This document shows, in pieces, positions 19,849 through 32,272 of a stretch of 35,261 nt of DNA. Source of the stretch: Deltaproteobacteria bacterium (GTDB lineage Bacteria; Desulfobacterota; DSM-4660; Desulfatiglandales; Desulfatiglandaceae). The notes under the pieces were generated by a model. That model did not search any database and had not been told where the DNA came from. It saw nothing but the letters and a program-made list of their open reading frames with translations. Position numbers and translations under genes: made by a program. The stretch lies in NCBI GenBank assembly GCA_029933075.1, contig JAOZOW010000022.1:1-35261 (forward strand). The letters run 5' to 3'. Position 1 is the first letter of the stretch, and the number at the start of each line of letters is the position of its first letter.

Positions 19849-21579
19849 TCATGCAAGGGCGTCTGCTATCAGACGCAATCCCTTTGAAATGTCCTTCCCC
19901 AGATGAAATCTGATCACATGCCTGCCGGCATCCATCAGGGCCTTTCCGTCTCCAAGGGCCTGGGCCATCTTCAGGGTGCCGAAGGTGATGGTAGAGGTCG
20001 TGCTTCCGGCCTCATCCGGTATGGGAACGTCTTCAGCGCTGTCTCCCGTGATCTGGATAAAGAGCCCGTGTCCGGCATCCCCTTTGTGAAGTTGGCCGGT
20101 AGAGTGAAGAAAACGTGGGCCATAGCCCACGGTGGTGGCCATCCGGTATTTTACCTGGATGCGGCTGCGCAGGTCCTGAAGGAGATGATCGGCCTCCGGG
20201 GTGGGGGTGATGTATGCCTGAAGCGCAGTATAGCTTCTTCCCCCCATCCCGGGCTGTCCAGGATTGGCCTGTGAGAAAAAGGCATTTAGGGTTTCCTTCA
20301 GTGTGGCGGCAAAAAAATCCGTGTAGACCTTAACCCCTTCCGCCTCAAGGGTCGGCTGCGGCTCAGGCAACCGGCCTTCTTTCCTGTATTCGGCAACCAT
20401 TTGGCGGGCCGAAGCCTTGGCAGATTCCACATTGGGCTGGTCAAAAGGGTTGATCCCCAGGATGCTTCCTGCTATGGCGGTGGCTATCTCCCAGCGGAAT
20501 ATCTCTTTTCCCAGGTCGTAGAGGTCCGAGAGCCGGATGCGGATCACTATATGTCCCCTTTGCTCAAGGGCGGTGAGCTCGGTTTCATAGGTGTTGTCGC
20601 CCTTGAGACCAAGGTTCACAAAAAGACGGTCATCTGAATAGACAGTGGGCTCCAGTAGCGTCTCACCGTGTACGGGAAGGATGCCTTTTCCTTCTTTGCC
20701 CGTGCTTTCGGCAATCAACTGTTCCACCCACGCACCAAAGGGGGCGATCTGCGGGGATGAAACAAGGGTGAGCTTGTCGCGTCCGGCCCGGGCCATGGCT
20801 CCTATGAGAGCCCCCAGCAAGGCGCCTGGATTGATATCCGCCGGTGCCGTGCAGTCCTTTGCCATAAGGGTCGCCCTCTCGAGCAGCATGGCGAGGTCCA
20901 TTCCGATCAGGGCGGCAGGCACAAGGCCGAAGTAGGAGAGGGCGGAATAGCGACCTCCGATATCCGGGTCGTTCAGGAATGTCCTCCTGAAATCCAGTGT
21001 CCGCGCCAGTGACTCCAGGCTGCTGCCGGGATCGGTGATCGCAATAAAATGGGCCCCGGCAGCATGGCGCCCCAGGGCCTCTGAGACTTTATTGTAAAAA
21101 AACTTCATGAATGAGAGGGTCTCCACGGTCCCTCCCGACTTTGTGGATACCATGAATAGGGTTTTAGAAAAATTAAGTCGCCTGACATGGGTTAAAACCG
21201 CGCCCGGGTCGGTGCTGTCGAGCACTGATAGATCCAGACAGCCCTGTGCGACCGCATGGATATTGCGGAACATTTCAGGGGCCAGGCTGGAGCCCCCCAT
21301 ACCCAGGAGGAGGGCATGGGTGTATCCGGCCTCACGCACCTCTTGAACGAATTGCGTTATCTCAGGGAGGGTCTCCTTCATTTTTTCAGGGCTTTCAAGC
21401 CAGCCTAACCGGTTGGTGATTTCTGCGGGATCCTCCTTCCACACGGTGTGGTCGTGGGCCCAGATCCGCTCCACAATCCTGTCGGACTGGAGTTGCATAA
21501 GGGCGGTCTTCACTGCAGGCTCAAATTCACCGAGGTTCGCCGAATATGTCGCCTGTACGGTTTGGTGTGTCTCCGGCAT
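19849..21579 (-). CDS. pgi: Glucose-6-phosphate isomerase
   Basis: A 576-residue phosphoglucose isomerase interconverting glucose-6-phosphate and fructose-6-phosphate. Seen are the sugar-phosphate loop GMGGSSLAPEMF, STKSGGTVET, GGRYSALSYFG, the catalytic-glutamate signature ESTGKEGKG and a Lys/His-rich C-terminus (GQLHKGDAGHG). It is longer than the approximately 450-residue bacterial form. ATG 21579 follows GAGGAG at 9 nt; a TTG at 21585 lies too close to that site. It is a central-metabolism gene placed between roo and the MshEN-motif protein on the same strand, so it may be co-transcribed or may have its own start in the 176-bp gap. Confidence 0.9.
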   Translation of the reverse strand: MPETHQTVQATYSANLGEFEPAVKTALMQLQSDRIVERIWAHDHTVWKEDPAEITNRLGWLESPEKMKETLPEITQFVQEVREAGYTHALLLGMGGSSLAPEMFRNIHAVAQGCLDLSVLDSTDPGAVLTHVRRLNFSKTLFMVSTKSGGTVETLSFMKFFYNKVSEALGRHAAGAHFIAITDPGSSLESLARTLDFRRTFLNDPDIGGRYSALSYFGLVPAALIGMDLAMLLERATLMAKDCTAPADINPGALLGALIGAMARAGRDKLTLVSSPQIAPFGAWVEQLIAESTGKEGKGILPVHGETLLEPTVYSDDRLFVNLGLKGDNTYETELTALEQRGHIVIRIRLSDLYDLGKEIFRWEIATAIAGSILGINPFDQPNVESAKASARQMVAEYRKEGRLPEPQPTLEAEGVKVYTDFFAATLKETLNAFFSQANPGQPGMGGRSYTALQAYITPTPEADHLLQDLRSRIQVKYRMATTVGYGPRFLHSTGQLHKGDAGHGLFIQITGDSAEDVPIPDEAGSTTSTITFGTLKMAQALGDGKALMDAGRHVIRFHLGKDISKGLRLIADALA

Positions 21580-21761
21580 GCCCAAGATCTCCTCTTATTT
21601 TCTCGCCTCTTCGAGAATGGCGGCATGGGCTTCTCCATCAAAGACTATGCAGGGCACCGCCAATGGCATTCGCCCGCAGGGTGTAGATCCGCATCCAAAA
21701 GCGGTTTCAATTCAAAAAGTGGCGGACGGACTCTATCACGAATTGCCCTGAGCAGGATGAA

Positions 21762-22949
21762 TCATGCGGGAGGCAGGGCTCGGGCGATTTTCCGGGCCAG
21801 CTCCCGGCAGGCCTCGAAGCCCTTTTCATCCGGCACATATTGGATCCTGACACCTGGATCAATCACCTGGAATCTCATGGCCTCCAGTTCTTTGTTGATC
21901 AACTTAACGGACTCTCCGCTCCAGCCGTACGACCCGAATGCCGCCCCTATCTTCCCTTTGGGCCTGAGACCTTTCATGTATGTGAGGAAATCCGCAACCG
22001 TTGGAAACAGGCCGTTGTTGAGCGTAGGAGATCCAATGATGACCGCACCGGCATCCATGACCTCCGTCATTATATCGCTGCGGTGGCAGTGCCTGAGGCT
22101 TAAGGGCTTGACATCAACGCCTTCCCCGGCAAGGCCCTCGGCGATGGCCTCGGCCATTGTCTCCGTGCTGTGCCACATGGTATCGTAAACTACCAGGGCC
22201 TTTCTTTTCGGATTTTGGTGGCACCAATCCAGATAGCTGCTGATAATTTTTGAAGGGTCTTTCCTCCAGATGATCCCGTGATCCGGGCAGATCATGTCAA
22301 AGGGAAGCGCCATCTGCATGACCTTATCCATCAGCTTGAGTATATGTGAGGAATAGAGCATGAGAATATTGGCAAAGTACTTAAGGGCATGGGGCATGAT
22401 TTCATCGCCCACCTCATCGTCAAACCTTTCCATACTGGCGTAATGTTGGCCGAATCCGTCACTTGAGAAAAGGATCTTGTCTTCGTTGAGATACGTAAAC
22501 ATGCTGTCCGGCCAGTGGATCATCCTTGTTTCCAGGAAGGTGAGCGTCCTTTTCCCTATGTTCAACTTATCCCCGGTTTCCACCGGGTGATAGTTCCATT
22601 TCTGGGAGAAATGACGTGAGAGATTCTTGTGCCCCATCTTGGAGCAGTAAAGGGGCTTGTCCTCTCCTATCTTGTGCATCAGCCTGGGCAGGCTGCCGGA
22701 GTGGTCCATTTCGGTATGGTTGCTGATTACATACTCGATTTTTTTGGGGTCCACGATTTGGCTTATTTTTGCAATAAGTTCCTCGGCGAATTCCTTTTTC
22801 ACCGTGTCGATGAGGGTTATCTTGTCATCCATAATAAGGAAGGCATTGTAAGTGGTCCCTTGATAGGTGGAGTACCCGTGGAAATCCCTGATGTTCCAAT
22901 CAATGACTCCTACCCAGTAAATGCCGTCCGCAATCTCAACCGCCTTCAT
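21762..22949 (-). CDS. roo: Flavodiiron protein (rubredoxin:oxygen oxidoreductase / NO reductase)
   Basis: A 395-residue A-type flavoprotein. The beta-lactamase-like domain holds the diiron ligands H78, E80, D82, H83 (HTEMDH), H145, D164 and H224. The flavodoxin domain from about residue 250 binds FMN (YDTMWHSTETMAEAI, SPTLNNGLF, FGSYGWSGES). All ligands expected for an active di-iron site are present. The enzyme takes electrons from rubredoxin and reduces O2 to water or NO to N2O in the cytoplasm. AAGGAGG precedes the ATG. The rubredoxin gene lies 44 bp upstream, the standard rub-roo arrangement. Confidence 0.95.
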   Translation of the reverse strand: MKAVEIADGIYWVGVIDWNIRDFHGYSTYQGTTYNAFLIMDDKITLIDTVKKEFAEELIAKISQIVDPKKIEYVISNHTEMDHSGSLPRLMHKIGEDKPLYCSKMGHKNLSRHFSQKWNYHPVETGDKLNIGKRTLTFLETRMIHWPDSMFTYLNEDKILFSSDGFGQHYASMERFDDEVGDEIMPHALKYFANILMLYSSHILKLMDKVMQMALPFDMICPDHGIIWRKDPSKIISSYLDWCHQNPKRKALVVYDTMWHSTETMAEAIAEGLAGEGVDVKPLSLRHCHRSDIMTEVMDAGAVIIGSPTLNNGLFPTVADFLTYMKGLRPKGKIGAAFGSYGWSGESVKLINKELEAMRFQVIDPGVRIQYVPDEKGFEACRELARKIARALPPA

Positions 22950-22993
22950 TGTGTCCTCCTTATATGCTCCCTTGAGGGGCCTTAACTGTATCT

Positions 22994-23155
22994 CTAATCA
23001 ACCTTTTCAAACATACCTTTTGCGGCCCCGCACACGGGACAGGTCCAGTCGTCAGGAAGATCGTCAAACGAGGTGCCGGGCTCAACTCCATTGTCGGGAT
23101 CGCCTTCGGCCGGATCGTAAATATAACCGCAAACCGTGCACTCATATTTTTCCAT
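22994..23155 (-). CDS. rub: Rubredoxin
   Basis: A 53-residue classical rubredoxin with one iron held by C6, C9, C39 and C42. The motifs are [12 protein letters not shown] and DWTCPVCGA, with the conserved aromatic core. A GGGAGGGA ribosome site precedes the ATG at 23155. It carries single electrons to the flavodiiron protein encoded 44 bp downstream. Compared with the second rubredoxin of this window it has the normal CxxC spacing in both loops. Confidence 0.95.
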
Positions 23156-23459
23156 CTTGTTCCCTCCCTACCTTAATTCCTCAGTCAAGAATGTTCGTAT
23201 CATAATAGGTTTAGTGTTTCAATCAGTTATGACCCCAATAAAGTCAGAGACCGGAACCCCGAGAAGGCACACCTCCGTCCATCTCCTACTCGTCTGGCAT
23301 GGCGGGCACCTTAGACCCTGTCAGGGCTCACACTTCGGGCTTAGGCGCAATCAGAAGATATACCGAAGCACCCTTGGCTGACACGCGGCACCTATTCACG
23401 CCGCTCTCTTCTCACAGCGTGCAGTGGGAGCCGCTTTAACCGGTTGGCACGTTAGGGAT
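23156..23459. other. 304-bp spacer between the 62-aa protein gene and rub
   Basis: No gene or RNA was recognised. It holds the 11-bp palindrome CCCTG-T-CAGGG (23316-23326) and the inverted pair CACGC/GCGTG (23397-23401, 23417-23421). A TTGGCACG at 23443-23450 on the + strand lacks a -12 element. It may contain a separate promoter for rub-roo, but none is convincing. Confidence 0.4.
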
Positions 23460-23648
23460 TCAGGCCTCGGCTTCCAGTGTGCATTTGGTAAAGTCGATCT
23501 CCTGACCGCAGCCCGAGCAGACATGAGGCTTGTCAAACTCGTCTGAGAAGATCTCCTTTTCCTTTCCGCAATTGGGGCACTTGCAGGTGAAGGCCTTGAG
23601 GTTCTTAAGGTCCTGAAATCCTGGGCAGTGCTGAGGCGTAGTAGGCAT
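23460..23648 (-). CDS. 62-aa cysteine-rich small protein
   Basis: The 62-residue product has seven cysteines: C8, C22, C24, C27, C44, C47 and C56. C24/C27 (CPNC) and C44/C47 (CSGC) make a zinc-ribbon- or rubredoxin-like pair of knuckles, followed by the acidic end IDFTKCTLEAEA. The start at 23648 is firm, with AAGGAGG 6 nt upstream; the frame opens earlier but overlaps the flavodoxin gene. No named family is recognised. Its place between flavodoxin and rub suggests a redox or metal role in oxygen defence, by context only. Confidence 0.75.
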   Translation of the reverse strand: MPTTPQHCPGFQDLKNLKAFTCKCPNCGKEKEIFSDEFDKPHVCSGCGQEIDFTKCTLEAEA

Positions 23649-23704
23649 GGCAAACCTCCTTCCCGATTTCTTGATGGTTTGTAACAAGTCGGCCGGGTGA
23701 CGGG

Positions 23705-24139
23705 TTAAGCTTGCTTCTTTGCAATCCCCCGCCCGCAATCCTGGGCCATCTGAATCCCGCCTTCCAATGAGGCGGATTTTAGCATCAATGGGCCGGTTAC
23801 CATATCCATCTCAAGGATATGCTTCATCGTATCAAAGATGCGTCCCGGTGCCTCGCCGCTCCATCCGAAGGCGCCGAATGCCCCACCGACCTTTCCTTCG
23901 AGTCCCGCCTTCTCGGCGAGGAAAAGCATCTTTTTCATGGCCTGCATCATTTCCCCATGGTAGGTGGCGGATCCAAAAGCATACGCATCGTAGCCATGGA
24001 GGTCTGATTCGGTTTTGATATCCGTGATATTGACGACTTTTGCTTCTCCGCCCTCAAATCGGATCCCTTCTGCAATCAGCTCGGCGATCCTTCTGGTTGC
24101 ACCGGTCCTCGTCGCATATATAACAAGCGTTTTTCCCAT
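23705..24139 (-). CDS. Flavodoxin-domain protein
   Basis: A 144-residue flavodoxin. The FMN phosphate loop is IYATRTGATRRIAELI at residues 7-22. FGSATYHGEM and AFGAFGWSGEA supply the isoalloxazine loops. The latter resembles the flavodoxin half of the flavodiiron protein encoded nearby, so it may be a detached relative of that domain. It transfers electrons in the cytoplasm, perhaps to the small Cys proteins or rubrerythrin. GGAG lies 8 nt before the ATG. It follows the 59-aa protein by 21 bp. Confidence 0.88.
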   Translation of the reverse strand: MGKTLVIYATRTGATRRIAELIAEGIRFEGGEAKVVNITDIKTESDLHGYDAYAFGSATYHGEMMQAMKKMLFLAEKAGLEGKVGGAFGAFGWSGEAPGRIFDTMKHILEMDMVTGPLMLKSASLEGGIQMAQDCGRGIAKKQA

Positions 24140-24160
24140 ATCTGGCGCTCCGTCGGTAAG

Positions 24161-24340
24161 TTAATCTTCTTCTATCTCAACCTTTCCCTTTATCTTGGTC
24201 CCGCAATGAGGGCAGAGTATTTCAATTTCTTCTTCGTTCCCGATAAATTTTTCTCTCAATTTCTCCGGCCCCAGAAAACTGACATCCCCGCATGCGCACT
24301 GGGGGCACTCAGCCCTGACCCTATATTTTTTTCCGGACAT
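24161..24340 (-). CDS. 59-aa zinc-ribbon-like small protein
   Basis: A gene of 59 codons, easy to miss by length. Cysteines are C12, C15, C17, C43 and C46 (ECPQCAC ... LCPHCG), giving two knuckles about 26 residues apart, with a charged, acidic C-terminus (GKVEIEED). The ATG at 24340 is preceded by GGAGGAGGG, a very strong ribosome site that supports a real gene. No named family is recognised. It lies between the rubredoxin-like gene and flavodoxin, 21 bp from the latter. Confidence 0.75.
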   Translation of the reverse strand: MSGKKYRVRAECPQCACGDVSFLGPEKLREKFIGNEEEIEILCPHCGTKIKGKVEIEED

Positions 24341-24390
24341 GACAATCCCTCCTCCACTTTCCTGTAAAAATAGTGACCTGACCCTATCAG

Positions 24391-24546
24391 TCAGCCCAAC
24401 CTATTGTCTCGGCCCGTCTCGCCACATTCCGGGATATAACATGAGACATCCGCAAATTCGCATTTCTCCTTGCACGAAGGGTACTGCTCAGGTGGTATTT
24501 CCCCTTGTAGCGTATACCCACAATTCTGACATTTCCAATCCGGCAT
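24391..24546 (-). CDS. Rubredoxin-like 51-aa protein with one metal ligand replaced
   Basis: A 51-residue protein. C6 and C9 ([11 protein letters not shown]) form a normal first rubredoxin knuckle. In the second knuckle the first expected cysteine is Tyr22 (Y-P-S-C25), encoded TAC where TGC would give Cys. Extra cysteines C29, C36 and C41 follow ([14 protein letters not shown]), as in the C-terminal rubredoxin-like domains of some rubrerythrin relatives. Iron binding therefore needs an alternative ligand. AAGGAGGG precedes the ATG. It lies 22 bp after the desulfoferrodoxin gene, clearly in the same transcript. Confidence 0.75.
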
Positions 24547-24568
24547 TATGAACCCTCCTTTCTGGTGG

Positions 24569-24943
24569 CTATGCTTTCCAGAGTCCATGGAGGTTGCAGT
24601 ATTCCCGGGCCGTGACCTGTTCCGCCTTGATACAGAATGTGGCTTCAGGGGCATCCCCAGGTTTCAGGAACTGCCGGTAAGCCTCTCCATCGGCAATGAG
24701 TTCTATCCACTGGATATAGTGTTTTTCTTCCATTGGATGCGCCACGTCGCCTACCTTGACCTTGAAACCGTCCTCTGTCTTCTCAATCACCGGCACATGC
24801 TTTTCCTTGGCCGCGTCCACAGTATTCTCTTTAAAGAGCTTCATTGGTTCTCCACAACAAACCAGCTCCCCTTTGCCACCAAAAAGGACCTCCACGATAT
24901 TGCCACACTTTTCGCATTTATAAATTTCGAGCCTTTCTGCCAT
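24569..24943 (-). CDS. dfx: Desulfoferrodoxin (superoxide reductase)
   Basis: A 124-residue two-iron superoxide reductase. The N-terminal desulforedoxin centre uses C10, C13, C29 and C30. The catalytic square-pyramidal iron is bound by H49, H69, H75, H119 and C116 ([19 protein letters not shown]). It reduces superoxide to peroxide in the cytoplasm using electrons from rubredoxin. All ligands are present and Glu47 of the E-K-H loop, which gates the site in the resting form, is conserved. ATG 24943 has AGGAGG about 7 nt before it. Downstream of rubrerythrin in the defence block. Confidence 0.95.
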
Positions 24944-25015
24944 GATAACACCTCCTGTTTTTTGGGGGTTCATATAGCCGCTCGGCCAGAGGTAGTCCCT
25001 CAGCCGGGTAAATCA

Positions 25016-25591
25016 CTACCAATTTTCCCCGAGCAGTTCAAAATGGGCCTGGGGATGGGCACAGGCAGGGCATTCCTTTGGGGCTTCCTTCCCCCTGTGG
25101 ATGTACCCGCAGTTTCTGCACCGCCATACTACCTCCTCCTCCCGCTTGAACACGCGGTCGGCCTCGATATTGTCGGCGAGGTCTTTGTATCGCTTTTCAT
25201 GTTGTTTCTCGGCCACGGCAATGGCTTCAAAGACAACCGCAATGGCTTCGAATCCCTCTTCCCTGGCCGTTTTTGCAAACTCGGGATACATCTGGGTATG
25301 CTCATAGTTTTCGCCTGCTGCGGCCGCACGCAGGTTTTCCAGGGTCGTGCCTATGACCCCCGCGGGAAAACCTGCCTGGACCTCCACCTCTCCTCCCTGG
25401 AGGAACTTGAAGAGCCGCTTCGCATGCTCCTTTTCCTGGTTGGCGGTTTCTTCGAAGATGGAAGATATCTGGACATATCCTTCCTTTTTCGCCTGGCTGG
25501 CAAAATAGGTATAGCGATTACGTGCCTGGGACTCCCCTGCAAAGGCCGTAAGCAGATTCTTCTCGGTTTGGCTTCCTTTTAGATCACTCAT
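25016..25591 (-). CDS. rbr: Rubrerythrin
   Basis: A 191-residue rubrerythrin. The ferritin-like four-helix part carries the diiron ligands in [24 protein letters not shown] and the later [13 protein letters not shown]. The C-terminal rubredoxin domain has [10 protein letters not shown] and CPACAHPQ. It reduces hydrogen peroxide to water with electrons from rubredoxin, finishing the superoxide pathway begun by desulfoferrodoxin. A GGAAAGGAGGAG site precedes the ATG. A candidate sigma-70 promoter lies about 110 bp upstream, between this gene and the CX4C rubredoxin. Confidence 0.95.
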
Positions 25592-25702
25592 GGGTCTCCT
25601 CCTTTCCTGGACCGGATTACTCCGGGATATTGCTCAAATGTTGCTTCCTTTTTCCAGCGGATCAGCTTTATATTCCTTATTGATTCCTGGGGAATATTCT
25701 TG

Positions 25703-25730
25703 AGGATAGCACCGCTCTCCTCCCTGTCAA
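25703..25730 (-). promoter_or_regulatory. Internal sigma-70 promoter candidate before rubrerythrin
   Basis: On the minus strand TTGACA (25725-25730, perfect) and TATCCT (25703-25708, four of six) are 16 bp apart, in the 145-bp gap between the CX4C rubredoxin and rubrerythrin genes. It would give basal expression of rbr-dfx and following genes independent of the upstream sigma-54 promoter. Confidence 0.45.
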
Positions 25731-25736
25731 GCGGGT

Positions 25737-25949
25737 TTAGGCATCTCCCTTCTCGGCAGTGGATCCCGGGCCTGCAAGTGGCCGGAAATTTTTCTTGCTG
25801 GCTCCGCAGATAGGGCATTTCCAGTCCTCGGGCAGATCCTCAAAGCGTGTGCCCTTAGGGATTTTCCCTTTTCTGTCACCCTTATCGGGATTATAGATAT
25901 ATCCGCAGTTTGTCGTCTGGCACTGCCACATTTCTTCGGGGGCTGCCAT
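25737..25949 (-). CDS. Rubredoxin with CX4C first knuckle
   Basis: A 70-residue rubredoxin. The iron ligands are C10, C15, C45 and C48. The first pair is spaced CX4C (CQTTNCGY) instead of the usual CXXC, a two-residue insertion also known in a second rubredoxin of Desulfovibrio desulfuricans. The second pair is normal (CPICG). A 15-residue tail follows. ATG 25949 is chosen because GGAAAGGAG lies 6 nt upstream. As the second gene after the sigma-54 promoter it probably serves as electron donor to rubrerythrin or desulfoferrodoxin. Confidence 0.9.
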
Positions 25950-26060
25950 TTTTTGCTCCTTTCCCATTGCTTACAACCGGCATCATCTATTTGTCACTGT
26001 GGGGCCATCCAGGATCTTCATGCTCCTCCACAAAATAACAGAAATGAAACCAATCAAATG

Positions 26061-26279
26061 TTAAGTTGGAAAATTATCTTCTTTCCACCAGCCCTTCCTG
26101 ATATGGGCCTCTTTTTCAGCTTCGGCCAGTTTTTTTATCTTAAAAGCGGCATCCCTCACCACGCCGTAGAGGACACCGCAGCCATTGTCTTCGCGATGCC
26201 GGTCCCCTTCGTCGGCCACCTGGAACATCCTGTCCACCAGCTCCAGCGTCTTTTTAATGCTGTGATCGCAACGCCTCAT
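26061..26279 (-). CDS. 72-aa helical protein, first gene of the defence block
   Basis: A 72-residue, strongly helical, charged protein (IKKTLELVDRMFQVADEGDRH, then DAAFKIKKLAEAEKEAH). It has two cysteines, C4 and one in DNGCGVLYG, and ends in GWWKEDNFPT. No named family is recognised; similar short proteins occur beside rubrerythrin genes in sulfate reducers as far as I recall. ATG 26279 has a GGGGGGGAG tract just before it. The sigma-54-type promoter is about 35-45 bp upstream, making it the leader gene of the block. Confidence 0.7.
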   Translation of the reverse strand: MRRCDHSIKKTLELVDRMFQVADEGDRHREDNGCGVLYGVVRDAAFKIKKLAEAEKEAHIRKGWWKEDNFPT

Positions 26280-26310
26280 TTCTCCCCCCCCACTCTTTAT
26301 CATTATTAAA

Positions 26311-26327
26311 TACAAGTTTTGTGCCAA
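26311..26327 (-). promoter_or_regulatory. Sigma-54 (-24/-12) promoter of the oxygen-defence block
   Basis: On the minus strand the sequence is TTGGCAC, AAAAC, TTGTA. TGGCAC at 26321-26326 is a perfect -24 element. The -12 element TTGT follows with the exact N5 spacing and differs from TTGC only at the last base. Transcription would begin near 26301, about 22 bp before the 72-aa protein's start. A perfect heptamer palindrome sits about 140 bp upstream, the normal place for an activator site. Confidence 0.65.
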
Positions 26328-26431
26328 TTTTTGGAAAGGTCGCCAATGGCAAGAAAATAAAATAATATTAGCATGTTATAATAAATTGCCAGGACTTTAT
26401 AATAAAAAATTTCGCCTTGTGGGAGGCAATA

Positions 26432-26449
26432 TGAGACAATGATGTCTCA
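26432..26449. promoter_or_regulatory. TGAGACA palindrome, candidate activator site
   Basis: TGAGACA-N4-TGTCTCA is a perfect 18-bp inverted repeat with a four-base centre. It is centred about 140 bp upstream of the predicted sigma-54 start site, where enhancer-binding activators usually bind. Three more heptamer copies lie 180-260 bp to the right. Confidence 0.6.
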
Positions 26450-26626
26450 AATTTTCGGCCATGTTATTAAGTCCCAGTAATAATTGAATTATCTAAAGCC
26501 GGGCCGGAACGGTAAAAGCTCGCCCCCCATCCAATAAAGGAGGCTGGCGCAAAACCCCAAAGCAATTTCTTCAAAGATCGGTCTTAGAACGATCCGCACC
26601 AGAGCGGAATCAGGGGAGAAGGATTG

Positions 26627-26695
26627 TGTCTCAATTTTGATATTGAGCCATAAGTGTATCATGAGACAGTTTCTGCTTTTCAAGTGCATGTCTCA
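26627..26695. promoter_or_regulatory. Three further TGAGACA/TGTCTCA heptamers
   Basis: TGTCTCA at 26627-26633, TGAGACA at 26662-26668 and TGTCTCA at 26689-26695. The last two are inverted with a 20-bp spacer and end 20 bp before the -35 box of the kinase promoter, so the same regulator could also control the kinase gene. Confidence 0.55.
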
Positions 26696-26714
26696 AAATT
26701 TCTCCATGCCCCCT

Positions 26715-26742
26715 TTGATTTTCATGAAGAACCTAATATAAT
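26715..26742 (+). promoter_or_regulatory. Sigma-70 promoter for the hybrid kinase
   Basis: TTGATT at 26715-26720 and a perfect TATAAT at 26737-26742 are 16 bp apart. The start point near 26749 leaves a leader of about 147 nt before the kinase ATG. Confidence 0.55.
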
Positions 26743-26895
26743 CCCTGCCCAAGTAGCCGCCAAACCGATAAAAGAGAAGGACTTAAATTAGGCATATCGG
26801 ATCGGTTAAGTTCGAAATTCGCATGCCAATGTCCTACTACCGGTTCAGTTCATTGAAAGAGCGGAGAGTGTAACCATGTGGTGAAAGGAGAGGAT

Positions 26896-29800
26896 ATGAT
26901 GTACCTTAAAAATTACCCTATCAGTATTTCCGCCATTCTCATATTCCTCTTTTTTTCTACCTTATCATCTCCATGCATGGCCCATCCCGATATACTCATG
27001 ATCAATTCCTACCATAAAGGCTACCCCTGGACTGACGATCTTGTAAAGACCACCATAGGTGCCATGAAAGAGCGGTTCAGGGATTGTAACCTCTATGTTG
27101 AATACATGGATACAAAGAGAATAAAAACCGCTGGGTATCTAAATCTCTTTCAGAAAATCATGGAGGAGAAATACCGCAATAGAAGGCCGGACATAGTAAT
27201 CGTGTCAGATGACAATGCGTTTCGCTTTATCCTCCACACCCACAAGAAACTATTCCCGGGCACACCGGTCCTGTTCATGGGCGTAAACAACTTTGAGCCG
27301 GCCATGATTACCGGGCATCCTGAAATCACGGGAGTCGTGCAAAGTGTGAATATAGAGGATACCATCAGGGTCGCATTAACATTAACGCCAGGCTTCAAGC
27401 GCGTTGCCGTTATCTACGATAACACGGCTACAGGAAGGGGCTACAGGAAGCAGGTATTAGAGACTGAAGAAAGTTTTGAAGGATTAGATTTCATCCACTT
27501 AAACGGTGCGCTGCTGAGCACCGATGAAATGCTTGAGAGGGTTGAGACATTGCCTGCCAATAGCATTATCCTTCTTTGCATATGGGTAAGGGACAAAACA
27601 GGCGCCTATGTGCCCTGGGAAAGGACATACCCCGAGATAACAAAGAGGTCACCTGTGCCCGTGTATGGGGTTATAGATTATATGCTTGATTTTGGGGTGT
27701 TGGGGGGGATGGTCCAATCTCCAAAGTATCATGCCCTTGAAGCAGCCGGGATGGCTGAAAGGATCCTGAGAGGGGAGTCCCCGGCACGCATACCCGTACA
27801 TATGAGGAGCCACAATGTGCTCATGTTTGATTACAGGGCTATTAGGAAATGGAACATAGACGAGGAGAGACTCCCTGACGGGGTTATCATTAACAGACCC
27901 AAGGGCCTCTACTACAAGTACAGAAAGTGGGTATGGGGCGCATTCGGCACATTGTGTTTTCTGCTTCTTGTGATAATGATTCTTCTCGGGAATATCATCA
28001 GAAGAAAAAGGGCGGAGGCTGCCCTTGCAGAAAGGGAAGAATGGTACAGGTCTCTTTTTGAAGGCTCGTTAGATGCCATAGTCATCACAACAGAAGATGG
28101 GAGGATACTGGATGCGAACGCTGCGTGGTGCAGGCTTTTTGGATACAAAAAAGAGGAACTATCAGGATTAAATGTGAGCAGGGGATGGGCAGACCCCATG
28201 CAAAGAGAGATATGGCAGAAAGAATTGAAGGAAAAAGGTTCTGTCAGGGACTATGAATTCAAGGGGATCGGCAAAGACGGGATCGTGAGAGATCTCCTTC
28301 TTAGCACCACGGTCAGGAAGGATGCCGAGGGCAATGTGGCATATCAAAATATATGCAGGGACATTACCGAACAAAAAGAGGCCGAAAAGCGGGTCACCCG
28401 GTCGGAGAAACGTTTTCGAGACCTGTTCGACTCTGTATCGGATCTTATCTATACCCAGGATCTGGAAGGGCGGTTTCTTACCGCGAACAGGGCGCTAAGC
28501 CGGATCTTCGGCTATGAGGTTGGGGAACTCATTGGTAGGAAGGCGTCGGATTTTATGAAACCTGAATGGAGATCCCTTTTTGAAAAAGAGTACCTGGAAG
28601 GGATAAAGTCATGCGGACATCACGAAGGAATTACCGCTTACTTTACCAGGGGAGGGCGCAAGATCTACATTGAATACCACAGCAACCTGGTTTTACCGGA
28701 GGAGGGAGAGCCCTATATCAGCGGCACGGGAAGGGATGTGACCGAACGCGTCCTGACGGAGAGGCAGATCAAGAAAGTTCAGGACCAGTTGCAACAGGCA
28801 CAGAAGATGGAGGCGATTGGTACGCTGGCAGGAGGGATTTCCCATGACTTCAACAATCTCCTTCAGGCGATCATGGGCTACACGCAGATCATTATGATGG
28901 GGAAAGACAGAGATGATCCTGACCTTGGAAGACTGAAGGAGATAGAGAAGGCGGCGCAAAGGGCAAGCGAATTGACCCAGCAGCTTCTCACCTTCAGCCG
29001 CAAGGTGGAGAGCAAACTGAGACCGGTGGACCTCAATCTTGAGGTCAGGGCGGTGGAGAAGCTCCTTAAGAGGACCATCCCGAAGATGATCCGTATCGAG
29101 CTTCATCTTCAAGAAGGACTCAAGATCATCAATGCCGACCCTGCCCAGATGGAGCAGGTCATGATGAATCTTGGCGTGAATGCGAGGGATGCCATGCCGG
29201 ATGGCGGGAAGCTGGTGATCAAAACGGAAAACGTCATTTTGGATGAAGAATACTCCCGGACCCACATGGGAGCCGTGCCCGGCGAGTATGTCCTTTTGAG
29301 CATATCGGATACGGGTCACGGCATGGACAGGGAGACTCTGGAGCATATCTTTGAGCCCTTTTACACCACCAAGGAGACGGGCAAGGGCACGGGCCTCGGC
29401 CTTTCCATGGTCTATGGGATCGTAAAGAATCACCAGGGATACATTGCGTGTTCCAGCGAGCCCGGAGAAGGCACTACTTTCAGGATCTATTTTCCGGCCA
29501 TTGAATCAGGGACTATGGAACAAGAGGCAGAGAAAGATGAGGAAAGAGATGCCCCGGGCGGCAATGAGACCATCCTGCTGGTGGATGATGAAGCGTTTTT
29601 GCGAGAGCTGGGGGCGGAGATGTTAGGGCGGTTCGGGTATACGGTGCTTCAAGCGGAAAATGGAGAAACCGCCCTTGAGATATATGAGAAAAAGCGGGCA
29701 GAGATTTCTTTGATCGTTTTGGACCTGATCATGCCCGGGATGGGAGGAAAAAAATGCCTTGAGGAGATCCTCAGGATGAACCCCCGGGCAAAAGTGGTGA

Positions 29801-29934
29801 TTGCCAGCGGATATTCGGTCAATGGATCTCCACAGGATGTCCTGGATGCCGGAGCAAGGGGCTACATCAGAAAACCGTACGATTTACGGCAAATGCTCGA
29901 TGCGGTCCGAGAGGCACTGGATGAAAAGGATTGA
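26896..29934 (+). CDS. Hybrid histidine kinase with periplasmic binding-protein sensor
   Basis: A 1012-residue membrane kinase. Order: signal/anchor helix (about 8-28), a periplasmic domain of the ABC-substrate-binding family (about 30-335; ILMINSYHKGYPW, NNFEPAM, VIDYMLDFGVLGG), a membrane helix (about 345-368), two PAS domains (about 380-490 and 505-620), a phospho-acceptor helix with H650 in GGISHDFNN, an ATPase domain (NLGVNARDAMP, DTGHGMD, GTGLGLSM), and a receiver domain (890-1012) with D943 in VLDLIMPG. It should detect a periplasmic ligand and pass phosphate from His to its own Asp. No output domain is attached. AAAGGAGAGG sits before ATG 26896. It converges on the sigma-54 activator gene 73 bp away. 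Confidence 0.92.
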   Translation: MMYLKNYPISISAILIFLFFSTLSSPCMAHPDILMINSYHKGYPWTDDLVKTTIGAMKERFRDCNLYVEYMDTKRIKTAGYLNLFQKIMEEKYRNRRPDIVIVSDDNAFRFILHTHKKLFPGTPVLFMGVNNFEPAMITGHPEITGVVQSVNIEDTIRVALTLTPGFKRVAVIYDNTATGRGYRKQVLETEESFEGLDFIHLNGALLSTDEMLERVETLPANSIILLCIWVRDKTGAYVPWERTYPEITKRSPVPVYGVIDYMLDFGVLGGMVQSPKYHALEAAGMAERILRGESPARIPVHMRSHNVLMFDYRAIRKWNIDEERLPDGVIINRPKGLYYKYRKWVWGAFGTLCFLLLVIMILLGNIIRRKRAEAALAEREEWYRSLFEGSLDAIVITTEDGRILDANAAWCRLFGYKKEELSGLNVSRGWADPMQREIWQKELKEKGSVRDYEFKGIGKDGIVRDLLLSTTVRKDAEGNVAYQNICRDITEQKEAEKRVTRSEKRFRDLFDSVSDLIYTQDLEGRFLTANRALSRIFGYEVGELIGRKASDFMKPEWRSLFEKEYLEGIKSCGHHEGITAYFTRGGRKIYIEYHSNLVLPEEGEPYISGTGRDVTERVLTERQIKKVQDQLQQAQKMEAIGTLAGGISHDFNNLLQAIMGYTQIIMMGKDRDDPDLGRLKEIEKAAQRASELTQQLLTFSRKVESKLRPVDLNLEVRAVEKLLKRTIPKMIRIELHLQEGLKIINADPAQMEQVMMNLGVNARDAMPDGGKLVIKTENVILDEEYSRTHMGAVPGEYVLLSISDTGHGMDRETLEHIFEPFYTTKETGKGTGLGLSMVYGIVKNHQGYIACSSEPGEGTTFRIYFPAIESGTMEQEAEKDEERDAPGGNETILLVDDEAFLRELGAEMLGRFGYTVLQAENGETALEIYEKKRAEISLIVLDLIMPGMGGKKCLEEILRMNPRAKVVIASGYSVNGSPQDVLDAGARGYIRKPYDLRQMLDAVREALDEKD

Positions 29935-30007
29935 GTTGTCAGGCCCGGGTTTCATGTAGATTGATTGTCGGTAGCCCGGTGGGTGTTTAGCAGGGACCCC
30001 GAGGTGG

Positions 30008-31345
30008 CTAATCAATGTCGGGGAATGCGGAGAGAAACCTGTAGAGGGTGGCCCGGCCCACTCTCAGGATCCGGGCTGCCTTGGCTTTGTTGCCACCGCT
30101 CTGGGTCAGAGCGATGCGGACGCTGTCGCGGTCCAGTTTTCTCGATGGCCCGCGGGTACCCGCCTTTCTATGCCATTCATTTAGTTCCATAGGGAGATGT
30201 TCCGGCTTGATGAGCCGCCCCCCGGACCGCATCAGGGCGAATCGGAGGGAGCTCTGGAGTTCACGTACGTTGCCCGGCCAGGGATAGCTCTTCATTACGG
30301 CCAGCGCTTCCTTGGAGATCCCCAGGGTTTCCCGGGTCTCTCCGGCGGCCATGCTGAGAAAGTGCTCAATGAGAAGGGGAATATCGTTTTTCCTGCTTCT
30401 GAGAGGAGGAAGGTGAATTGGAACCACCACCAGGCGATAGTAAAGATCCTCCCGAAAATTCCCCTTTTCCACTTCCTGCTTCAAATCACGGTTGGTGGCA
30501 CTAATCACCCGCACGTTCACTGAGATAGTCTTCTCATCCCCAACGCGCTCAAATGTTCCTTCTTGAAGGACTCTCAACAGCCTCGATTGTACCACTTTTG
30601 GAAGGTCCGCTACCTCGTCCAGGAAAAGTGTCCCGCCGTGGGCCAGTTCGAACCGGCCCTTCTTGTTTCTGATGGCACCGGTGAAGGCTCCTTTGACATG
30701 CCCGAACAGCTCGCTTTCCAGCACGCCTTCGGGAAGGGCGCCGCAGTTTATGGGCACGAAGGGTTTACCGCCCCGCCGACTTTCCTCATGGATGGCATTT
30801 GCCACCAGTTCTTTGCCCGTGCCCGTCTCGCCGCTGATGTGCACAGGGTAGTCATTGCCGGACAGATCCCGGATCTGCTTATAGATCTGGAGCATTTTCG
30901 GATCCCTGCCAATGATTCCGGCAAAGCTCTCCAGCTCTCCTAATTGTATCTTGTACCCGATGAGGTCAGTGACATCCCTAAAAGCGGCGATCACGCCTGC
31001 AAACCGTCCGGACCGATCCATCATCCCGCTCACATTCATCTCCAGGCGGCGGGTCGTCCCATCCTGCCGGACCATGTTAAGAGGATAAAAGATGTGTTCA
31101 ATGGATTCTGGGGAGCTGTCCATGAAGGAACATCTTCCCCCGCAAAAGGGGCCTCCAAAGGCGTCATGGCAATCTTTTCCGAGGACTTTTTCCCTGCGGT
31201 ACCCGGTGATTTCTTCCGCTGCCTTATTGAAAAAAAGGATCCGGCGCTCAGTGTCGTGGGCGATGATCCCTTCAGTGAGATTGTCCAGGATCCGTTCCAG
31301 GTTCTCCTTGTCGGCCAGTGTTTTTTCAAGCTTGAGATCTTTCAT
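30008..31345 (-). CDS. Sigma-54-dependent activator with Cys-bearing PAS domain
   Basis: A 445-residue enhancer-binding protein. Residues 12-128 are a PAS sensor with a C59-H-x7-C68-x3-C72 cysteine cluster (CHDAFGGPFCGGRC). The AAA+ domain follows: Walker A GETGTGKE (172-179), the sigma-54 contact loop GAFTGA (219-224) and Walker B TLFLDEV (239-245). A Fis-type helix-turn-helix (GNKAKAARILRVGRATLYR) is at the C-terminus. It has no receiver domain, so it is not a standard response regulator; the signal probably enters through the PAS domain. ATG 31345 has a poor ribosome site, but no better in-frame start is present. The gene has its own sigma-70 promoter. Likely target, by proximity: the sigma-54 promoter at 26311-26327. 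Confidence 0.92.
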   Translation of the reverse strand: MKDLKLEKTLADKENLERILDNLTEGIIAHDTERRILFFNKAAEEITGYRREKVLGKDCHDAFGGPFCGGRCSFMDSSPESIEHIFYPLNMVRQDGTTRRLEMNVSGMMDRSGRFAGVIAAFRDVTDLIGYKIQLGELESFAGIIGRDPKMLQIYKQIRDLSGNDYPVHISGETGTGKELVANAIHEESRRGGKPFVPINCGALPEGVLESELFGHVKGAFTGAIRNKKGRFELAHGGTLFLDEVADLPKVVQSRLLRVLQEGTFERVGDEKTISVNVRVISATNRDLKQEVEKGNFREDLYYRLVVVPIHLPPLRSRKNDIPLLIEHFLSMAAGETRETLGISKEALAVMKSYPWPGNVRELQSSLRFALMRSGGRLIKPEHLPMELNEWHRKAGTRGPSRKLDRDSVRIALTQSGGNKAKAARILRVGRATLYRFLSAFPDID

Positions 31346-31396
31346 GACTTGATCATTTTCGGGAAAAAGGGCACTAATACCTGAGATGTGGAGAAG

Positions 31397-31425
31397 AATA
31401 TAGTGTAAAGCCCGGGTGGCATCAA
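31397..31425 (-). promoter_or_regulatory. Sigma-70 promoter of the sigma-54 activator gene
   Basis: On the minus strand TTGATG (31420-31425) and TATATT (31397-31402) stand exactly 17 bp apart, matching consensus at four and five positions. The expected start near 31390 leaves a 45-nt leader. Confidence 0.5.
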
Positions 31426-31492
31426 GGGGAAAAGCCCGGAGCCATACGAGGGCGGTTCAAGTCGGATAAGCCAAACAGGAGGGATAGATAAT

Positions 31493-32272
31493 ATGGGCTA
31501 TGAGACCATCCAATATGAGGTCAAAGAGAAAGGCATTGGAATCCTGTCACTCAATCGTCCCCGGAAGTACAACTCGGTAAACCACAGAATGATGGAAGAG
31601 CTGGAGGCATTCTGGAGGGAACGTCTGTATGATCTGGAGACTCATGTCATCATCATGAGGGGCAATGGGAGGCGGGGGTTTTGTGCAGGTCTGGACATGA
31701 AAGAGGCAATGAAAACAGTGCCGGAAATGGACACGCACGCTTTTTATCGCTTTCAGGCCCGGCTTGCAAGGCTCACCCTTGCCATGAGGCAGGTCCCTCA
31801 ACCTATCATCTGCGCGGTTCATGGAGCGGGCGTGGGCCTTGGTTTTAGTTTCGCCCTTGCCTCTGATGTGCGTGTGATAACTCCTGATGCCAGGTTTTCA
31901 GCAGCCTATATCAACATTGGGTTAGGGGGTGCGGATATGGCCTGCAGCTATTTTTTACCCAGGCTCATCGGTGCGGGGAGGGCCTATGAATTTATGCTGA
32001 CCGGCAATTTTATGTCCGCCCAGGAGGCCATGGCCTTAGGGCTCGCAAGCCGCATGGTGGAGAGGGATCAGCTTATTGAAACGGCCCTGGATCTGGCAAG
32101 GGTTATGGAGAGCAAGAATCCCATGGGCCTTCGGTTGACCAAGGAGGCGATCAACATGAATCTGGATGCGGGGGGGCTGGAGCAGGCCCTTCATATGGAA
32201 GACCGGAACCAGGTGCTGCTCGGGATACGCGCCAGGCTGGGAGAAGGAAAGAAGATAGGCAGGTATTTTTGA
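31493..32272 (+). CDS. Enoyl-CoA hydratase/isomerase-family protein without canonical catalytic Glu pair
   Basis: A 259-residue crotonase-fold protein. It keeps the oxyanion-hole segments (RGFCAGLDM at 61-69, GAGVGLGFSFALASD at 111-125) that bind the acyl-CoA thioester. The two glutamates used by classic enoyl-CoA hydratase align with S119 and Y139, and an Asp (D148, in GGADM) lies in the following loop. So it is probably not a normal hydratase but an isomerase, hydrolase or other crotonase. The C-terminus is normal for the family. AGGAGGG precedes the ATG. Divergent from the activator gene, convergent with livF with a 19-bp gap. The branched-chain or aromatic acid transporter next door suggests a role in catabolism of an imported acid. 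Confidence 0.82.
   Translation: MGYETIQYEVKEKGIGILSLNRPRKYNSVNHRMMEELEAFWRERLYDLETHVIIMRGNGRRGFCAGLDMKEAMKTVPEMDTHAFYRFQARLARLTLAMRQVPQPIICAVHGAGVGLGFSFALASDVRVITPDARFSAAYINIGLGGADMACSYFLPRLIGAGRAYEFMLTGNFMSAQEAMALGLASRMVERDQLIETALDLARVMESKNPMGLRLTKEAINMNLDAGGLEQALHMEDRNQVLLGIRARLGEGKKIGRYF

Follow-up and report, generated by a model that had tools for sequence, protein, structure and literature searches.

Canonical sigma-54 promoters are characterized by GG at -24 and GC at -12, the -12 element reading TTGC, their activators use conserved sites at a distance of about 80-200 bp or more on the upstream side, and in the enhancers recognized by NorR three activator sites are situated upstream of the target. 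For the flavodiiron gene roo of Desulfovibrio gigas, control by a NorR-like activator in connection with nitrosative stress is reported (PMC4287179, citing Varela-Raposo 2013). The sigma-54 regulome of Desulfovibrio vulgaris Hildenborough was described as comprising 36 regulons, with one-component activators co-localized with their target promoter and with three conserved half-sites for DVU2956 (PMC4641369). Rubrerythrin, desulfoferrodoxin, oxygen, TGAGACA, and TGTCTCA go unmentioned in the main text of that article, which gives no regulon of the kind presented here. Beyond Desulfovibrio, the control of rubrerythrin, superoxide reductase, and related enzymes in strictly anaerobic sulfate reducers and their relatives is poorly known.

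The window, i.e., the whole stretch of 35,261 nucleotides from a member of the Desulfatiglandaceae that was analyzed, contains a run of defense genes on the minus strand. The run is headed by h72 (26061-26279), encoding a protein of 72 amino acids that belongs to a conserved family, has no match in Pfam or NCBIfam, and is encountered in 51 of 148 relatives. In this family, which usually heads the defense run, C4, C34, H59, and acidic residues are near-invariant. The predicted structure of h72 is a two-helix hairpin (pLDDT 88.6), for which a fold search returned only weak matches to helical hairpins (best E 1.0). On the same strand follow a rubredoxin with CX4C and CX2C (25737-25952; Pfam/NCBIfam), a rubrerythrin (25016-25591; NF045767 above cut-off), a desulfoferrodoxin, i.e., superoxide reductase (24569-24943; TIGR00320 above cut-off), a rubredoxin-like (RUBY_RBDX) protein of 53 amino acids (24391-24552; domain match), a Cys-rich protein of 59 amino acids (24161-24340; reading of the translation and relatives), a flavodoxin (23705-24139; Pfam/NCBIfam), and a Cys-rich, zinc-ribbon-like protein of 66 amino acids that is conserved in relatives (23460-23660). 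The rubredoxin, whose first knuckle is CX4C, not CX2C, is well kept among relatives. The 59-residue protein has no Pfam match and shows 69-93% identity in those relatives that keep it, with one copy at 38%, a conservation that is unusual for such a small size. Farther downstream on the minus strand, a rubredoxin (22994-23155) and a flavodiiron protein (21762-22949) form a pair at 21762-23155 (Pfam/NCBIfam). The sequence-only reading had described these same genes as one run under common control, and their identities hold; the rubredoxin-flavodiiron pair, however, is preceded by a 305-bp gap with a weak terminator-like match and is possibly transcribed separately. A sigma-54 promoter of its own was discarded for the pair, as neither a promoter match nor a half-site was found upstream of it at five loci. 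A search of positions 21000-32000 against Rfam gave no match.

Upstream of h72, the minus-strand promoter TGGCAC-N5-TTGT of the earlier reading is present at 26326-26312 (TGGCACAAAACTTGT); positions 26326-26311 of the minus strand read TGGCACAAAACTTGTA, i.e., TGGCAC-AAAAC-TTGTA, which is assigned as a putative -24/-12 promoter from reading and from its conserved position at orthologous loci. The start codon of h72 is situated 32 bp past the promoter match, GGGGGGGGAG precedes the ORF, and the transcript is predicted to start at about 26300. The genome encodes sigma-54 (RpoN; Sigma54_DBD match, E 1.1e-61). By itself, the promoter match does not exceed what chance would give in the 35-kb window, and the case therefore rests on comparison. 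The comparative set consisted of the regions upstream of h72 orthologues, taken from whole genomes and from named contigs and numbering 96 once near-duplicates were removed, and the null model of dinucleotide shuffles, which ignore relatedness among the regions. In 63 of the 96 regions, TGGCAY-N5-YTG is located at a distance of 20-120 bp from the start codon that follows (0.33 expected from shuffles), TGGCA(C/T) and the TG of the -12 element recurring at a conserved place. The -12 box is mostly TTGAT, the base after TTG being A in 40, T in 11, C in 9, and G in 3 of these 63 promoters.

The second element of the earlier reading, a perfect 18-bp inverted repeat, is exact at 26432-26449 (TGAGACAATGATGTCTCA; TGAGACA-N4-TGTCTCA) and constitutes a predicted proximal activator site. 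Its 5' end is located 123 bp from the 5' end of the -24 box, and the exact palindrome is present as a single copy in the 2.99-Mb genome. Exact TGAGACA half-sites number five within 26432-26695 and three in the other 35 kb or so, with 3.8 expected for the whole window. Lack of conservation at homologous loci had been named beforehand as an argument against the proposed regulon, and it does not apply: the palindrome is present with at most two mismatches in 60 of 96 h72 regions (0.07 expected from shuffles), and the mean number of exact half-sites per region is 2.07 (0.07 expected). In relatives, the proximal site is usually situated 101-128 bp from the -24 box. At the loci L078, L125, L127, L135, L171, and L014 it is the direct repeat TGTCTCA-N4-TGTCTCA, with the distance to the promoter unchanged.

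Three more half-sites at 26627-26695 had been overlooked. Two of them lie inside a distal composite of 42 bp on the minus strand (26627-26668), TGTCTCA-TGATACA-N4-TGGCTCA-N10-TGAGACA, comprising four half-sites with 2 mismatches in 28 positions, about 210 bp upstream of the proximal palindrome; the third, an exact TGAGACA outside the composite (26689-26695, minus strand), is a feature of the window only. The consensus TGTCTCA-TGAGACA-N4-TGTCTCA-N10 (or N9)-TGAGACA has one half-site order, facing the promoter, and is located 217-393 bp upstream of the -24 box at h72 and other loci. Allowing four mismatches in 28, the composite is found in 48 of 96 h72 regions; allowing three, 22 of the 85 genomes searched in the order carry it, 32 times in all, and a reversed control pattern has no match. 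If the half-sites pair, as we infer, the composite would have room for about three dimers. A helical phasing of the distance between composite and proximal site was hinted at in a few genomes and was gone in the full list.

An IHF-like site, TAACATGCTAATATTAT (26362-26378, minus strand), is situated 52 bp upstream of the -24 box and agrees at 12 of 13 positions with a recurrent motif, TAACN4YDATWTTAA. At this stringency the motif occurs 29 times versus 1.8 expected, a statistic that is biased since the motif was spotted by eye. The general IHF consensus WATCAAN4TTR, which is independent of it, occurs 22 times versus 3.6 expected, the largest value in any shuffle being 6. The IHF-like motif peaks sharply 50-54 bp upstream of the -24 box (19 loci, single orientation). 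On the basis of these elements the predicted operator is multipartite, consisting of distal composite, proximal palindrome, and IHF-like site.

A recurrence of the palindrome near other sigma-54 promoters of relatives had been suggested as a check, and it does recur at other oxidative-stress operons. Defining a cassette as the composite or palindromes together with a sigma-54-like promoter, and naming targets from their translations without a family library, cassettes were found before thiol peroxidase (genomes G025, G036, and G042), a second flavodoxin-rubredoxin-rubrerythrin-desulfoferrodoxin operon (G001), a YyaL-type thioredoxin-domain protein (G003 and G024), FAD-dependent oxidoreductase operons (G066 and G074), a lipoprotein and channel pair (G025), a cluster of a Cys-protein and flavodoxin (G045), and a 109-residue Cys4 protein, accompanied by ferredoxin in G003 and by cytochrome and ferritin-like genes in G066. 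This 109-residue protein with its C-terminal cysteines heads a cassette-bearing operon in two families (L120 5682-6011 and L111 6331-6660). At these other operons the composite is located 379-393 bp from the promoter in eight cassettes and 217-332 bp in others, and the proximal site at about 97-127 bp. Between operons of one genome the spacing agrees to a few bp, for example 264 and 127 versus 267 and 126 in G036, and the two G036 cassettes align at the motifs alone, which argues against a recent duplication. Palindromes within the guaB coding sequence (G008:C30, G020:C331, and G066:C195), sites within other coding sequences (G005:C236, G051:C9, and G003:C1:857539), and sites in G092 and G138 were judged to be due to chance. 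In G003 (L113, G003:C1:2181000-2196000, around 7241), a second activator of the type described below is encoded divergently from a YyaL-type gene, and the space between the two contains a palindrome with one mismatch.

The candidate activator is encoded at 30008-31345 on the minus strand. Domain matches reveal a PAS domain, a sigma-54 AAA+ domain with GAFTGA, and a Fis-type helix-turn-helix, i.e., the layout of a one-component sigma-54 activator (bEBP) with an input domain without receiver. NorR-like control had been brought forward as a parallel for this locus; with 328.1 bits against a cut-off of 476 in the NCBIfam NorR model and with PAS as input, the protein is not a NorR by that model. 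Its PAS domain carries a cysteine triad, C59-X8-C68-X3-C72, and among orthologues two sequence classes of this domain exist, both of which keep CX8CX3C. The triad is also present in two other activators of the genome, which weakens the idea that it is a specific oxygen sensor. The Fis helix GGNKAKAARLLGVGRATLYRFL is near-invariant across orthologues. In 85 genomes of the order, h72 and the activator occur together in 41, h72 without the activator in 7, the activator without h72 in 5, and neither in 32; for the composite, counted at up to three mismatches, and the activator, the respective numbers are 19, 3 (composite only), 27 (activator only), and 36, the Fisher tests of such co-occurrence ignoring phylogeny. 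Because h72 and the activator gene are neighbors at most of the relatives' loci and co-occur, and because the DNA-binding helix is near-invariant, the protein encoded at 30008-31345 is the best candidate for the TGAGACA sites.

We consider it likely, with a probability of about 0.82, that the region upstream of h72 is the enhancer-promoter unit of an operon for defense against oxygen, peroxide, and superoxide, and that it is run by this activator. From the elements observed we infer binding, sigma-54 dependence, DNA bending, and the number of dimers: activator dimers would occupy the TGAGACA/TGTCTCA half-sites of the distal composite, with room for about three, and those of the proximal palindrome, and IHF-like bending would bring them to the RNA polymerase-sigma54 at TGGCAC-N5-TTGT. 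A redox or oxygen-linked signal might be received by the PAS domain, the least certain step, after which the AAA+ ring would open the promoter complex, so that the 72-residue protein, rubredoxin, rubrerythrin, desulfoferrodoxin, flavodoxin, and the small Cys proteins would be transcribed. Weighing against this reading are the 27 genomes of the order that have the activator but no composite at up to three mismatches, and the -12 element, which is mostly TTGAT in place of TTGC. The same enhancer-promoter might instead be bound by another activator, such as a response regulator whose partner is the neighboring hybrid kinase. The genome contains 22 strong matches to sigma-54 activators, and in the window the gene for a hybrid histidine kinase (26878-29934, plus strand; ABC_sub_bind, PAS, PAS, HisKA, HATPase, and receiver) is directly divergent from the operator and separates it from the activator gene. 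In a wider collection, only 27 of the 67 loci whose upstream sequence is long enough have such an activator on the same strand, its gene is not adjacent at many distant loci, and the three composite-bearing genomes of the order mentioned above lack a detected activator orthologue. However, these three are drafts of 65-89% completeness, one of which has part of an activator gene where a contig ends, and at 28 of 35 relatives' loci a homologue of the activator, in some cases a contig-end fragment, is encoded upstream of h72, on its strand and no more than 2.6 kb away, the kinase with its ABC-substrate-binding-like sensor being absent from that place in the relatives examined. Moreover, the activator co-occurs with both composite and lead gene, and in the part of the genome's other activators that was compared, none has a similar Fis helix. 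Another activator is unlikely, if still the least unlikely of the alternatives.

Nearly as much might be said for the composite serving another promoter, that of the divergent kinase in the window or of the activator gene in relatives, with the proximal palindrome alone acting on h72. The composite abuts the stop codon of the activator gene in many relatives, and in the window about 210 bp separate it from the start of the kinase gene. Orientation and distance to the sigma-54 promoter are kept, however, at operons without adjacent activator or kinase, and we regard this possibility as improbable. It is very improbable that a repressor, or another regulator unrelated to sigma-54, uses the TGAGACA sites as its operators and that the TGGCAC match is incidental. 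Inverted repeats of this type are indeed used by many families of regulators, the promoter match does not by itself exceed chance in the window, and its -12 element is non-canonical, but both at the h72 locus and at other operons sites and promoter are found together at conserved distances, and a distance of 100-400 bp upstream corresponds to the position of an enhancer, not of an operator. For the enhancer-promoter unit run by the protein encoded at 30008-31345, conservation, spacing, and co-occurrence thus argue that the sequence-only reading, which had proposed a regulon under a TGAGACA-linked activator, was right in substance, with an element that is larger and a regulon that appears wider than stated there.

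On balance, these data probably point to an undescribed sigma-54 regulon for oxygen and peroxide defense in several strictly anaerobic families of the Desulfobacterota, with a Cys-triad PAS activator, a split enhancer of fixed geometry (distal three-dimer composite, IHF bends, and proximal dimer), and a non-canonical TTGAT as -12 element. No prior description of this operator or this regulon was found in the full-text literature, which mostly comprised papers other than subscription articles and preprints. Cultivated carriers include Desulfoferrobacter suflitae, Desulfacinum, and strain NaphS2; in the first two, a Cys-triad activator is encoded upstream and sites of the TGTCTCA/TGAGACA type are present. 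Since regulator, operator, and promoter are predicted and there are several targets, the system can be tested directly in such carriers, and its split enhancer, the geometry of which is nearly constant, lends itself as a model of how sigma-54 promoters are activated from afar.

Rubrerythrin, superoxide reductase, rubredoxin, and flavodiiron protein are shared with the oxidative-stress operons of Desulfovibrio and Moorella, for which, to our knowledge, no sigma-54 enhancer control has been described. The gene content also resembles the PerR and OxyR peroxide regulons (rubrerythrin and peroxiredoxin), whereas the candidate here belongs to the AAA+ activators of sigma-54, which act from a distance, and is neither a repressor nor an activator of the sigma-70 type. 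With respect to the iron-sulfur PAS oxygen sensor of the NreB type, in which a cluster of cysteines binds the iron-sulfur center, the comparison is limited to a CX8CX3C triad that occurs in both PAS classes and in two other activators of the genome. As to the D. vulgaris sigma-54 regulome, the regulon is of the same type, its candidate activator being co-localized with the promoter. A further parallel are the NorR regulons, norR-norVW of E. coli and roo of D. gigas, in which a one-component sigma-54 activator is likewise encoded beside a defense operon with flavorubredoxin-type genes. In contrast to the GAF domain of NorR, the input domain here is a PAS domain with a cysteine triad, and the site is TGAGACA-N4-TGTCTCA; where NorR has a three-dimer enhancer, the enhancer here seems to be split into a proximal palindrome and a distal composite that itself may accommodate about three dimers.
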